NCBI GenBank assembly: GCA_945873305.1
Contig: CAMCCX010000014.1
Location: 1 to 45,605, forward strand
Direction: 5' to 3'
DNA from: Akkermansia muciniphila
GTDB taxonomy: Bacteria > Verrucomicrobiota > Verrucomicrobiia > Verrucomicrobiales > Akkermansiaceae
DNA length: 45,605 nt
Part shown: positions 39,634-45,605 of the stretch, in pieces
How the letters are laid out: every line of letters starts with the position of its first letter
How positions within the stretch are numbered: position 1 is the first letter of the stretch
Notes under the pieces: generated by a model
What the model was told of the DNA's origin: nothing
Seen by the model: the letters and a program-made list of their open reading frames with translations, nothing else
Database searches by the model: none
Translations under genes and position numbers: made by a program

Positions 39634-39756
39634 GAGAAATTTAGAGGAAAGGCGCGTGCGGACCGAAAGCGGATTGCATGCCGAAGCGCCATTTTTCCGC
39701 CGCGAAGAGCTGGCGAATTCCCGTGGAACCAAGCAGGCGGAGCCGATGCGACAAGC

Positions 39757-39775
39757 AAAAAAGCCCAGTCGGGAC
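39757..39775 (-). terminator. Weak terminator after lnt
   Basis: On the minus strand GTCC, loop CGACT, GGGC and then six Ts lie about 15 nt after the lnt stop. The stem is only four base pairs, one of them T-G, so termination would be partial. Confidence 0.3.
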
Positions 39776-39789
39776 CTAATTTTCCGGCA

Positions 39790-41457
39790 TTACCGCCTGA
39801 ATTCCCGGCTGAAAACCGCCAAAACCAGCCCCGTCGCCGCCAGTCCGAGGATCCCCCAATCGCCGATCACCGCGAACAGCGAAAAGCTCGGACGAAGGGG
39901 AATTTTCAGCTCAGTGAGCAGCGAGCCGCGAGTGAAATGACTGCCCTTTTCATCCGTCAGAATCTGCTGCTGCCAGGAATTCGGATCATCGGCAGATCCG
40001 GTGGAATCGAGCGCCGCGCTGACCCCGCTGTTCGCGCAACGCAGCATCGGCCGCCGCAACTCGATGGCGCGGAAGCGCGCGTTGGCGAAATGCTGGGCCG
40101 CCGCCGGGGACTCTTTGAACCAGCCGTCATTGGTCACGTTGATGATCACTTGTGGCCCCGACCGGGTGAATTTCCGCACCAGCCGGCCCACGGTGTCTTC
40201 GAAGCAGACCGTCGGGATCGCGCCGATGACCGTCCCGCCTGCGGGGATCGGCAGCGGCTCGACCGAGTCGCCCGGCGTAAAGGAGCCGCCAAATTCCACT
40301 CCGGCTTGCTGCTCGTAGATTTTTTTCAAAAACGGGATCGAGTCCACAAACGGGATCGTCTCGCCGAAAATCACCAGATGCCGCTTGCGGTAGGTCTGGA
40401 GCTCGTCTGACGGCGACATCACCGCGATGGAATTGTAGGCGCGGCCCTTCGTTTTCATCACCAGTTGGTCGCCGGATTTCTCCGCCTCCAACTCGTTGAC
40501 GCCGTAAATGAGGGAAAACGGACCCGCCGTGCGAACCTGCGCGATCGTGTCGAGATTGATCTGCCAGGTCCCCCACCCGCCGTCGGTCGTGCGGAGAATC
40601 CGGCCCGTCAGCGCGCTTTCCGGCCACAGCACCCAGTCCGGCCACTTGGCGGAAATTTCGCCCTGCGGCGACTTCATCGCATCGAGTGCTTTCAAGGTTT
40701 CGTCCTCATAGGCTTGGTGGACCTGCAGGTCGGTCCACAACACCCGCGCCGCGTCCTGCGGGATGTTGATCTGCACCAGCAGCGTCTTCAACCGCACCGA
40801 TTCCGCCCGTTCCTCGTCGGCGATCCGCGCCCTGCCGTAGCCATACATGGAAATCACCAGCAACGCCGCGACCGCCAGATCCCACCGGATTCCGGATTTG
40901 CGCAGGATCAGCTGCCGGCCCGCTTGCGCCACGACCGACTGGAAAAACACCAGCATCAGCGAAAGCCCGGCCACGCCCAGCAGATCCGCGGCCTGCGCCA
41001 TCACCCGCGCCTCGTGGAACGCCACGCCCAGCCCGTTCCAGCCGAAGCCCGTGAACAACCAGCCCCGCAGCCATTCCAGTCCGGCCCACACCGCGCCCAG
41101 ACAGAACGCCACCCGCAAACTCGCCCCGGCACTTTCCGCTTTCCCGAGCTTCGCCGCGAACGCCCCGAACAGCCCCCAGAAAATCCCCAGATACAGCGGC
41201 AGCAGCACCATCCCGAGCGGCGACACCACCGCCAGCCACCGGAGCTGGATCAGGCAGCACACCAATCCCGCCAAATACCCAAGGGCAAATCCTGTCCAGC
41301 CCGCGCGCTTTCCCTCCACCGAGCTCAAAGCCGCAAGCAACGGCAGCATCGCCACCCACGCCAACGCCGAGAAATCAAACGGCGGAACCAGCCCCGCCAC
41401 CAACAAGCCGCTAAGCACCGCCGCCGCGATCCGCATCCATCCCGAGCCACTTTTCAT
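39790..41457 (-). CDS. lnt: Apolipoprotein N-acyltransferase Lnt
   Basis: Lnt adds the third acyl chain to lipoproteins in the inner membrane, after LspA cleavage. The 555-residue protein has five to six N-terminal membrane helices (to about residue 200), a nitrilase-like periplasmic catalytic domain (about 220-510) and a last helix. Seen are the N-terminal PPFDFSALAWVAMLPLL, the active-site Glu in DWVLWPESALTG, the Lys region YNSIAVMSP...KRHLVIFGE, and the nucleophile Cys in PTVCFEDTVGR. The start at 41457 overlaps a short upstream frame by 4 nt (ATGA), suggesting it was coupled to another gene. Confidence 0.94.
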   Translation of the reverse strand: MKSGSGWMRIAAAVLSGLLVAGLVPPFDFSALAWVAMLPLLAALSSVEGKRAGWTGFALGYLAGLVCCLIQLRWLAVVSPLGMVLLPLYLGIFWGLFGAFAAKLGKAESAGASLRVAFCLGAVWAGLEWLRGWLFTGFGWNGLGVAFHEARVMAQAADLLGVAGLSLMLVFFQSVVAQAGRQLILRKSGIRWDLAVAALLVISMYGYGRARIADEERAESVRLKTLLVQINIPQDAARVLWTDLQVHQAYEDETLKALDAMKSPQGEISAKWPDWVLWPESALTGRILRTTDGGWGTWQINLDTIAQVRTAGPFSLIYGVNELEAEKSGDQLVMKTKGRAYNSIAVMSPSDELQTYRKRHLVIFGETIPFVDSIPFLKKIYEQQAGVEFGGSFTPGDSVEPLPIPAGGTVIGAIPTVCFEDTVGRLVRKFTRSGPQVIINVTNDGWFKESPAAAQHFANARFRAIELRRPMLRCANSGVSAALDSTGSADDPNSWQQQILTDEKGSHFTRGSLLTELKIPLRPSFSLFAVIGDWGILGLAATGLVLAVFSREFRR

Positions 41458-41564
41458 GCCGTGAGCATCACCGGACCGCGCCGCTTGGTCCACTTCGAAT
41501 CAATCATTCCCGGATGCCGCAGGTCCGTCAGCACGGTGCTAAATTCTTCTTGAATTTTCAGAAT
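41454..41564 (-). pseudogene. Short ORF coupled to lnt; likely 3' remnant
   Basis: A 36-residue open frame ends in a TGA overlapping the lnt ATG (ATGA). It reads EEFSTVLTDLRHPG and then IDSKWTKRRGPVMLTA, with natural codon use, and looks like the C-terminus of a soluble protein. No ATG lies in its first part; it opens after a TAA in an AT-rich palindrome. I do not recognise the family. The most economical reading is the tail of a gene whose 5' part has been deleted. Confidence 0.35.
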
Positions 41565-42224: not shown

Positions 42225-42240
42225 TTTGGCTCGATGCCTT

Positions 42241-43635
42241 TCAGCTCCAACCTTTGCTCCACGCGTCAAACTCCGAAGGCCTGAGCCGGTAGCGCGCGAT
42301 GTTTCCACCATGCAGGCAACCGAGCTCGGTTTCCACGACCTCGATGAACTTGGAGCGCTCCGCTTGCGGAATGACCTTCACCGCCTCTGAGGCGATCCAC
42401 TTCGCGGCGACGCGCTTGTTCATCACCCCCAGCACGACCTCCCGCACGAAATTCCCGATCACCGCGCGGTGACGCAGGCGGAATGGATCGGGATCGCCCA
42501 AAGACTGCCGCACCGCCGAGTAGCGCGCACAAGACCGGCGGTAGGCCCAGGCAAACACGTCCCGCAGATACTCGACGCGGTTCAACTCGTAAACGCCTAG
42601 CAGTCCGCCGATATAGTCGTGCGAATCCACATCCACGAACGACAACGGACAAAGGTTATAACGGATGAGCGGGATGTTCGCCGCCAGCCGCGAAACCCGC
42701 TTATTCACGTCTTCAAACGGCTGCAAGTAAGGCAAATGCACCATCGCGAAAAACGCCTGCTCGAACGGATTCCGCACGGCAGCCGCCTTCACCAGAATCT
42801 GCTCGAACCGCTCCTCGATTTGTTGCGGCACCTCCAGCGGATGAAAGACGGTCCCGCTGATCCCGACCGGCCGCGAACGCACGCGCCCGCTGGCCCCGGG
42901 ATCGGGCAGCAGGTTGTCGGACAGCAGGGCATGGAGATTGCAGATCGTGTAGCGGTTGAAATCAATTTCTCCCGCTTCGTCGGCCAGCATCTCGATGGCG
43001 GCCTTGTGATTGAGGATCATCTGCGTTTCCTGGGTGGCTTTGCCCTCGGCGTCTTCGCCGATTTCAAGCAGCCGCTGGGTTTCTAGCAGCGAGTAGGTGT
43101 TGCCTTCGAGCCGGCTGGAGTTCCACGAGAGATCGATGAGCAGGCGGTCCATCACCTGCCGCATGTAGGTGCCGGCGGGAAGCGCGCTCAACCCGACCTG
43201 GCCGAGGTCTTCGAGTTCCTTCCGCAAACTTTCCGGCAGGTAGAACGTGTGATTGGGCTGATAGGCATCGAGAAACGCCCCCTGATAGCCCACGGGTGTC
43301 CGCTCCGAAACGGGGAGTTGGATGACCGCGCGGATTTCCCGGGCTGCGGGTGACAGCCAGTCATTGCGGGTTTTGTAAACGGGCGGCTCTTCCCGCACCA
43401 TGGAGGTCGTCGGGAAATGATCTGGTTCGGGGACGAGGTAACGCCGGGCGCGTCCCTTGCCTTTGGGAGCGAGTCGATTTTCGGAGACGAGTTGGTCGAG
43501 CCGCCGCTGCAAGGTGCGCTTGGGGAATCCAAGGGCGGGAATTGCCAGCAGCTCTTTAACGGACGCGCCGGACGGGCCCCCCGCGATGATGCGGAGCAGA
43601 TGATCGAATTCGTGGGCTGGAATTTGAAGTGGCAC
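42241..43635 (-). CDS. Fic-domain protein with N-terminal winged helix and degenerate catalytic motif
   Basis: A 464-residue protein. Residues about 8-68 form a winged helix (VKELLAIPALGFPKRTLQRRLDQL, then basic KGKGRARRY). The Fic domain spans about 160-370. An inhibitory motif SSRLEGN (173-179) of the class II type is intact. The active-site loop reads QPFEDVNKRVSR (305-316) where AMPylating Fic proteins have HPFxxGNGRxxR: the catalytic His is Gln305 and the first Gly is Val310. A different or absent transferase activity is therefore likely. The only start is a GTG at 43635, directly after an in-frame TAA ATC. That GTG lies inside one of six operator-like half-sites. Confidence 0.88.
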   Translation of the reverse strand: MPLQIPAHEFDHLLRIIAGGPSGASVKELLAIPALGFPKRTLQRRLDQLVSENRLAPKGKGRARRYLVPEPDHFPTTSMVREEPPVYKTRNDWLSPAAREIRAVIQLPVSERTPVGYQGAFLDAYQPNHTFYLPESLRKELEDLGQVGLSALPAGTYMRQVMDRLLIDLSWNSSRLEGNTYSLLETQRLLEIGEDAEGKATQETQMILNHKAAIEMLADEAGEIDFNRYTICNLHALLSDNLLPDPGASGRVRSRPVGISGTVFHPLEVPQQIEERFEQILVKAAAVRNPFEQAFFAMVHLPYLQPFEDVNKRVSRLAANIPLIRYNLCPLSFVDVDSHDYIGGLLGVYELNRVEYLRDVFAWAYRRSCARYSAVRQSLGDPDPFRLRHRAVIGNFVREVVLGVMNKRVAAKWIASEAVKVIPQAERSKFIEVVETELGCLHGGNIARYRLRPSEFDAWSKGWS

Positions 43636-43749
43636 GATTTACGGCTTAAGTGGCATGATTGCTTCCGAATCATGCCAAAACCACCGCTTTTATGGCACGA
43701 TTATCCGAATCATGCCAGTAAAATTTCAAATTTCGCCAAAATCATGCCA
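43630..43749. promoter_or_regulatory. Array of six TGGCAYGATT half-sites at the fic start
   Basis: TGGCAYGATT or its complement occurs at 43630-43639, 43651-43660, 43668-43677 (complement), 43693-43702, 43708-43717 (complement) and 43740-43749 (complement). Sites 2 and 3 form a perfect 10-bp palindrome with a 7-nt spacer, sites 4 and 5 a palindrome with one mismatch and a 5-nt spacer. Sites 1, 2 and 4 are 21 and 42 bp apart, near whole helical turns. The first covers the fic GTG. This looks like an operator for cooperative binding, possibly by the winged helix of the Fic protein itself. Confidence 0.7.
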
Positions 43750-43835
43750 CTTGAGGCTTCGATTTTCTGGAATGGCTCGGTCTGTATTAGTTTTCGTCTT
43801 GGCACCGGGGGTGGGATGAGGCCACTGTGCGGCGC

Positions 43836-44819
43836 ATGAAATTCAATCTCCTTCCGTTGGCGGGCGCTGTGTTTATTTCCACCTTCGGAATCGGTTCCGG
43901 ACAAACCTCTCCCGCCATCGATTTGGAGGCTCGCAAGGCTTCGGTCGTCAATCTGGAGTCCCACATCGCCCAGCGGGAATCACGCCTGGCGGAACTCCGC
44001 CAGGACATCGCGACCCTCGACGGTCGCATCGAAAAGCGCTTGGACGACGTGGTTAAAATGCTGGCAGACACGACCGACTCACAAGACTCGAAAAGAAAGG
44101 TTTCCCAGATCAAACTGGACGCGATCCATGGCCTCAGGCGCGCCATCGACCTCTACGCGGCCAAGCGCAGGGAAATCAGCGAGCGGATCAGGAAAGGCGA
44201 TGACGCCGCACTGGGCGATCTCGGGAAATTCGACGAACGGATCAATAACCGGATCGCGCAAATCGTGGAGCTCAGCAAGTCGTTTCCCGGCCATGAGGAT
44301 GTGAAAAAATACGAGTCCGACGGAGGCTCCTACTGGGATGGCTACGACAATGAAAACTCACGGATCAGTGAGGAATGGAAGCAAAGCCGCCGTGACAGCG
44401 TCCAAGGTAAAAAACAGCGCGACGAAATCAACACCGCTATCCGCGAGGGCATCGAGCGCCTCGATCAGCGCCGCCGCTCGTTGCAGGACGCGCTCGCCAA
44501 TCGCAATCCATCCGACTCGGCCCGCAAGCTCTACACGCAGGAGCTTGGCCAGATCGACGCCCAGTCGGAGAACCTGAAAAAGCAACTGGCGGAAATCACC
44601 ATGTCTAGCGGCGGCGCGACCCGCCAACCGAGTCTCGACGAGGCCGTCGATCTCGGACAACTGCTCGACGACGCGCGCAAGGACCTTCGTTCGGATATCT
44701 CAACCCTCTTCCGGCTCTATGACGGCTTCGACCGAGAGCGCGCCCATCTCGCCGGGCTGAAGGAAAATCTAGCGGCGCGCAAGGCCTGGCTGGAAAAGAA
44801 CGCCCCTGCCGGAAAGTGA
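43836..44819 (+). CDS. Secreted coiled-coil protein of unknown function
   Basis: A 327-residue protein with a signal peptide (residues 1-22, MKFNLLPLAGAVFISTFGIG) and then mostly charged heptad-like helices: ARKASVVNLESHIAQRESRLAELRQDIATLDGRIEKRLDD is typical, as are RLDQRRRSLQDALANRN and LGQIDAQSENLKKQL. A Tyr/Asp-rich break, GSYWDGYDNENSR, interrupts the coil near residue 165. No enzyme motif is seen; it is probably a periplasmic structural or cell-wall-associated protein. The ATG at 43836 is chosen over a GTG three codons upstream because it begins the signal peptide. It is divergent from fic and converges with proA. Confidence 0.75.
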   Translation: MKFNLLPLAGAVFISTFGIGSGQTSPAIDLEARKASVVNLESHIAQRESRLAELRQDIATLDGRIEKRLDDVVKMLADTTDSQDSKRKVSQIKLDAIHGLRRAIDLYAAKRREISERIRKGDDAALGDLGKFDERINNRIAQIVELSKSFPGHEDVKKYESDGGSYWDGYDNENSRISEEWKQSRRDSVQGKKQRDEINTAIREGIERLDQRRRSLQDALANRNPSDSARKLYTQELGQIDAQSENLKKQLAEITMSSGGATRQPSLDEAVDLGQLLDDARKDLRSDISTLFRLYDGFDRERAHLAGLKENLAARKAWLEKNAPAGK

Positions 44820-44831
44820 CTCGCGCGGCGG

Positions 44832-45605
44832 TTAGGCTCTCACCTGGCCGCTTCCGCGGACGCGGTACTGGTAGCTGGTGAGCTCGCGCAAACCCATCGG
44901 CCCGCGGGCGTGGAGCTTGTCGGTGGAAATGCCGATTTCCGCGCCGAAACCGAACTCGCCGCCGTCGGCGAAGCGGGTGGAGACGTTGTGGAAAACACAG
45001 GCGGAGTCGACTTCCCGCAGGAACCGCTCGGCAGCCACGCGATCCGTGGTGACGATGACATCGGTGTGATGCGAGCCGTATCGGTTGATGTGGGCGACAG
45101 CTTCCTCGAGCGAGCCGACGATCTTGATGGATAGAATGAGATCGAGGTATTCGGTGCTCCAGTCTTCCTCGGTGGCGGGCAGAATGTCGGCGAGATGCTT
45201 GCGGGTTTCCTCGCAACCGCGGAGCTCGACGTTTTTCGCGCGCAGGGCGGCGGCGACTTTCGGGAGGAATGAATCCGCGATCTCGCGGTGGACGAGCAGG
45301 GTTTCCAGCGCGTTGCAGACGCCGCATTTGTGGGTCTTGGAATTCACCGTGAGCGCGACGGCCATTTCCTGGTCGGCGTCCTTGTCTGCGAAGAGGTGGC
45401 AGATGCCGTCATAGTGTTTGATCACGGGCATGCGGGCGAGCGAGACGACGGTCTCGATCAATCCCTTGCCGCCACGCGGGATGATGAGGTCGAGCCACTT
45501 GTCCATGCCCGCCAGAACCGCCACGCTTTCGCGGTCGGTGAAAGGGATGAGCTGGATCGCGTGCTCGGGCGCGCCAGCTGCGGCGAGGGCTTCCGCGATG
45601 GCGAC
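44832..45605 (-). CDS. proA: Gamma-glutamyl phosphate reductase ProA (C-terminal part)
   Basis: ProA reduces gamma-glutamyl phosphate with NADPH to the semialdehyde in proline synthesis. The frame runs off the right edge, so the N-terminus is missing; 257 residues are visible. They include DLIIPRGGKGLIETV (ProA-specific), KCGVCNALETLLVH with the catalytic Cys, GSHHTDVIVT and the C-terminal GAEIGISTDKLHARGPMGLRELTSYQYRVRG. These are aldehyde-dehydrogenase-fold landmarks of ProA. The frame is open through the whole of 45525-45605, so internal start codons there are not the true start. It converges with the coiled-coil gene; no terminator is seen between them. Confidence 0.95.
   Translation of the reverse strand, partial: VAIAEALAAAGAPEHAIQLIPFTDRESVAVLAGMDKWLDLIIPRGGKGLIETVVSLARMPVIKHYDGICHLFADKDADQEMAVALTVNSKTHKCGVCNALETLLVHREIADSFLPKVAAALRAKNVELRGCEETRKHLADILPATEEDWSTEYLDLILSIKIVGSLEEAVAHINRYGSHHTDVIVTTDRVAAERFLREVDSACVFHNVSTRFADGGEFGFGAEIGISTDKLHARGPMGLRELTSYQYRVRGSGQVRA

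Follow-up and report, generated by a model that had tools for sequence, protein, structure and literature searches.

An array of ten-base half-sites at the start of an Akkermansia fic gene as the probable operator of its own winged-helix Fic protein

In a stretch of the Akkermansia muciniphila genome (45,605 nucleotides, hereafter the window), the start of a fic gene lies in an array of six copies of the word TGGCAYGATT. We put the probability at roughly 0.8 that this array is the operator of fic itself, to which the Fic protein binds, with repression of its own synthesis as the very probable result. Computation supports the array, its conservation in relatives, its covariation with the Fic protein, the helical phase of its half-sites, and the winged helix of the protein. 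The features are listed in Table 1.

Table 1. Positions of the fic gene, its encoded domains, its array and the divergent gene in the window
Feature	Position	Strand	Detail or basis
fic, Fic protein with N-terminal winged helix (464 aa)	42241-43635	-	GTG start at 43633-43635
Fic motif QPFEDVNKR, residues 305-313	42697-42723	-	Gln at the catalytic-His position
Class-II-type inhibitory motif SSRLEG, residues 173-178	43102-43119	-	conservation
N-terminal winged helix-turn-helix, residues 1-67	43435-43635	-	AlphaFold models and fold search
Recognition helix, residues 39-51 (K39 R40 T41 L42 Q43 R44 ...)	43483-43521	-	AlphaFold
Half-site 1	43630-43639	+	covers the fic start codon
Palindromic operator 2	43651-43677		half-sites 43651-43660 (+) and 43668-43677 (-), spacer 7
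Palindromic operator 1	43693-43717		half-sites 43693-43702 (+) and 43708-43717 (-), spacer 5; predicted -10 inside
Predicted fic promoter	43700-43729	-	-35 TTGAAA at 43729-43724, spacer 18, -10 GATAAT at 43705-43700; consensus match only
Half-site 6	43740-43749	-	outer end of the array
Divergent coiled-coil protein, signal-peptide-like start	43827-44819	+	probably outside the unit

The preliminary description of this DNA had reported six copies of the word within 43630-43749, with four of them paired in two palindromes, and our word scan of the whole window confirms this: all six copies are exact, the spacers are 7 and 5 nt, and the rest of the window holds no further exact copy. It had also noted that copies on the same strand lie 21 and 42 bp apart and that one copy contains the start codon of fic, and both statements are correct (the spacings are those of the plus-strand copies). 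An in-frame TAA sits one codon upstream of the GTG, and orthologues at 93% and 88% identity start at the same position, likewise within a copy. In the 152 bp upstream region of the window's fic, a single 9-mer (with at most one mismatch) is found in six copies. Across 2,600 dinucleotide shuffles of 130 fic upstream regions, no 9-mer reached more than four copies, so the six-copy array is not due to chance. The operator may also shape the start of the fic coding sequence, in the window (43630-43639) and in relatives: the reverse complement of TGGCAT is ATGCCA, and a proline at residue 2 is nearly invariant among 35 aligned relatives.

The window's own genome (3.06 Mb in 171 contigs) contains 13 exact copies of TGGCAYGATT, and six of these are in the array; the other seven have no partner within 60 bp, even with two mismatches allowed. 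When we searched for the paired form (TGGCRYGA, 6 to 11 bases, TCRYGCCA), the array was the only place in this assembly. In 73 genomes of the genus, the paired form is found at 25 places in 16 genomes, and 9 of these places are upstream of members of the fic family (two each in G000, G022 and G040, and one each in G003, G026 and G035). The remaining 16 places compare with 21 for a reversed-pattern control, so the paired form is no more common at sites unrelated to fic than chance would give. Neither of the two findings that the preliminary description named as refuting it was made: the paired word is not scattered beyond chance through this assembly or the 73 genomes, and close orthologues have it in their upstream regions too.

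Relatives of this fic gene are patchily distributed but widespread. Within the genus, 25 of the 73 genomes have one (E ≤ 1e-30), as do 58 of 260 genomes of the family and 13 of 387 genomes of a phylum sample (E ≤ 1e-60). A scan of species genomes yielded 126 loci, of which 80 were kept, and 27 plasmid records contained relatives at E ≤ 1e-40. With two of the relatives as queries, samples of genomes around two proteobacterial centres gave hits in 30 (of 349 genomes) and 38 (of 370). Phage and viral collections held few relatives (2 partial matches and 2 loci). The record titles from the scan point to Verrucomicrobia, Proteobacteria, Chlorobiota, Bacteroidota, Chlamydiae, Acidobacteria and others; these taxon names are indications only, since many of the titles belong to assemblies from metagenomes. 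A first set of 130 loci was drawn from 144 (L015-L037 and L045-L165); by subtraction, 14 were dropped for a duplicate protein, a partial start, or a short upstream region. A later set of 75 loci was reduced by 11 (8 duplicate proteins and 3 short) to 64, for a full set of 194 loci, with putative start codons picked by alignment to a query.

To identify arrays without supplying any motif, we counted the most repeated 9-mer (at most one mismatch, either strand, non-overlapping) from -140 to +12 and required at least four copies. By this definition, arrays are present upstream of 97 of 130 fic genes, as compared to 73 of 4,481 control windows from the same loci and 7 of 2,600 shuffles; 33 of the 130 loci fall below four copies in this de novo count. 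Canonical Fic genes of the genus (with HPFxDGNGR) had arrays in 0 of 15 cases, where 23 loci were given and 8 without a hit were left uncounted. These canonical proteins cannot accommodate the N-terminal domain, as their inhibitory motif already starts at residue 35-66.

The repeated word differs between groups: it is TGGCAYGATT in the window's group and TGGCGCRA.., TGTCGC.., TTGCGC.. or others in remote relatives. A sub-branch with the helix RTALNRL (L034, L037, L146 and L228-L231) has other repeats, and several of its members have direct repeats of (T)CTCGCCATT, the last of which holds the start codon. Remoter members from plasmids and genomes (L161-L165 and L191-L195) have quite different winged helices, and several of them have other repeated words (AATCAGCTC, AATCTTATC, TGGCTGATA and TGAGGAGAT). 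One locus from a viral contig collection (L148) has a mixed array, with four TGGC and two TGTCG half-sites, and a serine at residue 38.

Paralogues (two or three per genome, 13 genes in total) are encoded in six genomes, and for 10 of these genes the best word is present at least four times. Four of the six genomes show no word of one member upstream of the other, although G227 is weak evidence among them, as its second member (L232) has two copies only. The paralogues in G024 show one cross-match between their words. In G608, two members with similar words show one and three cross-matches, and neither matches the third. The array word therefore tracks the gene more than the genome.

The encoded protein has a single Pfam match, to Fic (E = 9.3e-10, residues 226-321), and the winged helix comes from structure prediction. 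An AlphaFold model built with 45 aligned relatives (mean pLDDT 85.4) has an N-terminal winged helix, with helices at residues 7-18 and 26-30, the recognition helix, and strands at 56-58 and 65-67. Modelled by itself, this domain is nearly unchanged (mean pLDDT 80.8). In a fold search with residues 4-72, where rows within 1 Z were counted as tied, the first row was the complex of TtgV with its operator (PDB 2xro; Z 10.0, rmsd 1.8, 65 aligned residues). TtgV is an IclR-type regulator, and its likeness to the window's protein is one of fold only. The solved matches of the N-terminal domain are winged-helix domains, and the tied rows include ArsR and MarR repressors.

Fic proteins are commonly studied as toxins and AMPylases, and according to the literature, the catalytic histidine of the Fic motif has a role in AMP transfer. 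In the window's protein this position is Q305, and 192 of the 193 relatives with a residue there have glutamine (the other has leucine); V310 of the motif is present in 157 rows. Thus, the protein lacks the histidine expected of class II Fic AMP-transferases. In contrast, the inhibitory motif is conserved (S173 in 193 of 194 aligned rows, E177 in 190 and G178 in 193), as are other parts of the Fic motif and its surroundings (in 193 rows, N311, R313 and R316 in all and K312 in 190). The Fic fold is also retained: the core matches FICD (Z 24.8), SoFic (Z 21.8) and CbFic2 (Z 20.2), and PADLOC models of anti-phage families match over the Fic core only (PDC-S04, E = 1.6e-14; SoFic, E = 3.4e-9). Because the catalytic histidine is lost while the N-K-R..R pocket and the inhibitory motif persist, we think that a sensor or regulatory domain is more likely than a standard AMPylase. 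A degenerate motif need not imply inactivity, to judge by Fic2 of Campylobacter fetus, which, in the available part of that report, is toxic with a degenerate motif and loses its toxicity when the catalytic histidine is exchanged.

Matches to the full model mostly cover residues 108-379, with ranges that reach 461 (3zcn) and 448 (7xux), and the alignment extends into the C-terminal region of SoFic. In this part of the protein (residues 390-462, window 42250-42468), H442, G444, R448 and W459 are invariant in 45 aligned rows. This region may be a second helix-turn-helix, at the C-terminus.

We assigned each locus to a class from the DNA alone, by the second and third base of its half-site: GG (TGGC), GT (TGTCG) or TG (TTGCG). 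Short patterns of 6 bases left 47 of 130 loci unclear, and we used longer patterns instead; the probable cause is that TGGCGCAA appears as TTGCGCCA when the opposite strand is read. The first 130 loci comprise 83 GG, 25 GT and 13 TG, with 9 unassigned, and all 194 loci comprise 117 GG, 38 GT and 19 TG, with 20 unassigned.

Residue 44 of the recognition helix predicts base 2 nearly perfectly. It is arginine in GG and GT loci, and in TG loci it is tyrosine (16 loci), histidine, aspartate or phenylalanine (one each). This rule agrees with the DNA at 172 of 174 classified loci, and at 52 of 53 held-out loci (from the 64 that were added later). Both exceptions (L146 and L231) have the different helix RTALNRL. 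Residue 44 also ranked first in a scan of all 464 columns in which each prediction excluded rows more than 60% or 55% identical in the catalytic part (AUC 0.999 and 0.994, while the next columns had 0.85 and 0.81). On a maximum-likelihood tree that was built without the DNA-binding domain, the TG class changed at least four times; the residue-44 association rests on these changes, with two independent pairs on well-supported branches.

Residues 38-39 track base 3 less cleanly than residue 44 tracks base 2. GG loci mostly have Pro, Ala, Ser, Lys or Thr at residue 38 together with Lys, Arg or His at 39. GT loci have Asn, His or Gln at 38 (and, as seen later, Asp or Glu), or a non-basic residue at 39. 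The rule, settled from the first set, holds at 142 of 155 loci and fails at 13; the fit in the first set is partly circular, since the rule was made on that set, and the held-out figure, which is free of this circularity, is 39 of 47. The exceptions are L073, L094, L102, L107 and L127 in the first set and L177, L179, L205, L215, L221, L225, L227 and L232 among the held-out loci. The extension to an acidic residue 38 was drawn up after the held-out misses.

The class changed between GG and GT at least 18 times on the tree. In about 16.5 branch-disjoint pairs, 10.5 changed in the same direction as the rule, 0.01 in the opposite direction, and 5.9 showed no difference (median sign p = 0.002). With well-supported branches only, there were 7 pairs, with 3.6 same, 0 opposite, and 3.4 without difference (median p = 0.125); the smaller first set gave 6 supported pairs, with 4.1 same and 0 opposite (p = 0.125). 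On supported branches, then, the association of residues 38-39 never runs against the rule but falls short of significance. A single-column scan for GG versus GT was not decisive, as P38 ranked fourth to fifth and columns of the catalytic domain were equally high. In a scan for excess substitutions, K39 ranked third and P38 was outside the top 15.

These results bear on whether some other transcription factor of the host targets the array and controls fic. A binding site alone does not name its binder, although we found nothing that points to another factor directly. That explanation would leave the tight link between base 2 and residue 44 of Fic, the top-ranked column of the protein, without a cause; words that mostly differ between paralogues in one genome are also hard to reconcile with it, as is the chance-level count of paired words elsewhere in the genus. 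We consider it very improbable. The earlier suggestion that the winged helix of Fic is the binder is instead supported by the predicted domain, the arrays of relatives, the covariation, and the words of the paralogues.

Classified loci have 4.7 half-sites on average, and among convergent pairs at 174 classified loci, the outer span is 25 bp in 103 pairs, 24 bp in 39 and 26 bp in 29. Tandem distances at these loci peak near 11, 20-21, 31, 40-41, 52-53, 61 and 72 bp, and the periods that fit best are 10.2 bp (769 tandem distances) and 10.4 bp (498 convergent distances; these counts of distances and pairs are unweighted for relatedness). This phase implies that half-sites tend to share one face of the DNA.

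A promoter is predicted within the window's array, with its -10 inside a palindrome (Table 1) and its -35 between copies. The search found this one promoter-like pair for fic, while shuffles gave 0.2 on average (sd 0.4). Across the family, 81 of 174 loci have a promoter-like pair, and in 67 of these it overlaps a half-site, where 50.6 would be expected at random places. Overlap of promoters and half-sites is thus weakly above random placing. Self-repression, the other part of the preliminary description's proposal for Fic, rests on the position of the predicted promoter and on the precedent of CccR that is discussed below.

The repeats might instead act in RNA, as hairpins in the fic leader that control translation. 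The palindrome at 43651-43677 does lie downstream of the predicted -10, one copy covers the start codon, and a half-site covers the start at 57 of 174 loci. RNA hairpins would not be expected to come with tandem copies in helical phase or to covary with a DNA-recognition helix, and the copy at 43740-43749 is upstream of the predicted promoter. We therefore judge control through RNA to be highly improbable, and we return to the array as a DNA operator of fic.

Comparisons of homologous regions indicate what belongs to the unit. Homology between the window and G022 runs from 42240 to 43753, which is the gene and its array, and the flanks do not match. Homology with G003 runs up to 43758 and resumes at 43836. 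In G004, the divergent gene (with homology up to 43831) and its neighbour are present, and no close fic was found there. These comparisons suggest that the array and fic form a functional unit, and they speak against the divergent gene as an obligate partner. At the same place, the genome G070 has just a fic remnant of 378 bases (L272, G070:C2:57500-65000) that is homologous to window 42296-42673 and lies between homologues of window 39753-41513 and 44616-45605.

They also address the possibility that Fic binds the array but that other genes are its further or even main targets; the preliminary description had raised the divergent coiled-coil gene as such a further target. The outer half-site is just 77 bp from a possible GTG start of that gene. 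However, G004 keeps both this gene and the adjacent one although no close fic was found there, the homology with G022 and with G003 ends before the gene, and in G022 the fic gene and array are flanked by sequence unlike the window. Furthermore, the plus strand from 43500 to 43950 has no promoter-like match, and the window's own assembly has no further paired operator. Control of the divergent gene is left unsupported, and we consider a role of the array at other genes unlikely.

The limits of homology might also suggest that fic is a mobile cassette and that the array is the end at which it recombines or transposes. Besides the match to G022 with its unmatched flanks, such a role would fit the patchy presence of fic in the genus and the gene neighbourhoods on plasmids: we examined 16 of the 27 plasmid loci, of which 14 were annotated, and in 8 of these 14 the annotation lists a gene for recombination or transposition (integrase, recombinase or transposase) no further than about 2.5 kb away. 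But the word is absent at the other end of the gene, the copy number and spacing vary among relatives, and a mobile end would explain neither the helical phase nor the covariation with Fic. An array that serves as a mobile end is, in our judgement, extremely improbable. By eye, the 14 plasmid loci with annotation show no constant partner of fic, such as the separate antitoxin gene of a type II toxin-antitoxin module of the Phd-Doc type (the annotation table may miss small genes). Three plasmid members (L150, L157 and L163) adjoin defence-like genes: WYL and TIR domains, ThiF with multiubiquitin, and a restriction endonuclease.

From this evidence, we infer physical binding, repression, the involvement of dimers, and a role for the Fic domain, as follows. 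Each half-site would be bound by Fic through its N-terminal winged helix, and a convergent pair of half-sites (with an outer span of about 25 bp) would hold one dimer. Several dimers may cooperate along one face of the DNA, over about 120 bp that include the predicted -35 and -10, the leader and the start codon. This would block the promoter, so that transcription of fic is very probably repressed. The Fic domain, without its histidine, might modulate binding or repression, perhaps through a nucleotide. The array and the gene would be kept together, and specificity would drift by lineage through paired changes of helix and half-site.

A broader reading, which we offer tentatively and which is more likely wrong than right, is that a widespread and horizontally moving Fic family has swapped AMP transfer for a one-gene, self-controlled regulator, and that divergence of helix and operator keeps paralogues or incoming copies from silencing each other. 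The mutual independence of copies proposed here would resemble the immunity groups of phages. The family would be a case, across many phyla, of a readable protein-DNA code in which one residue of the helix tracks one base of the operator. It offers dozens of natural pairs of protein and operator, which might serve as a set of mutually independent control parts, and it raises the question of what a Fic fold without its catalytic histidine senses or does.

Among the matches listed in a search of the open-access literature (titles and the starts of abstracts), we found no description of a Gln-type Fic family with an N-terminal winged helix or of its arrays. That a fused helix-turn-helix might regulate fic was already proposed: in the available part of their paper, Kinch et al. 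(2009) suggested, by analogy with Phd, that expression of fic may be under the control of the HTH domain in such fusions (PMC2686095). Their proposal came from domain architecture, and operators, covariation, and a His-to-Gln family do not appear in that part of the paper. Similarly, correlations between regulator residues and operator bases have been described for the GntR, IclR and MerR families (PMC4494728, PMC8222616 and PMC5045206, each as far as available); the principle is the same, and those are not Fic proteins. CbFic2 from Coxiella burnetii and SoFic from Shewanella, which align with the Fic core of the window's protein, are class II Fic proteins with a C-terminal winged helix-turn-helix. 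In the accessible portion of the source (PMC10628234), DNA tests with CbFic2 used random sequences and its own operator is not named, and DNA binding by SoFic is stated to be undemonstrated.

The experimental precedent is CccR of Yersinia pseudotuberculosis, for which autorepression was shown. As described in the part of the paper available to us (PMC9755527), CccR binds inverted repeats at its own promoter with a 46-nt footprint and represses itself, with promoter activity 3.3-fold higher in the mutant; it also has the FIC motif HPFGNGNGR, with the catalytic histidine, and AMPylates FtsZ. Like CccR, the window's protein combines a Fic domain, with its fold and inhibitory motif, and a helix-turn-helix domain in one chain, and its gene has inverted repeats at its own predicted promoter. 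The two differ, to the extent of that text, in that the helix-turn-helix of CccR is C-terminal while the clear winged helix of the window's protein is N-terminal, and in that CccR has histidine where the window's protein has glutamine. CccR also has one inverted repeat of 10 bp with a 26-bp spacer, while the family described here has 4.7 half-sites on average and a convergent span of about 25 bp. Compared with the CccR type, the family is set apart by the N-terminal winged helix, the His-to-Gln Fic domain, the multi-site array, and a code that drifts by lineage.
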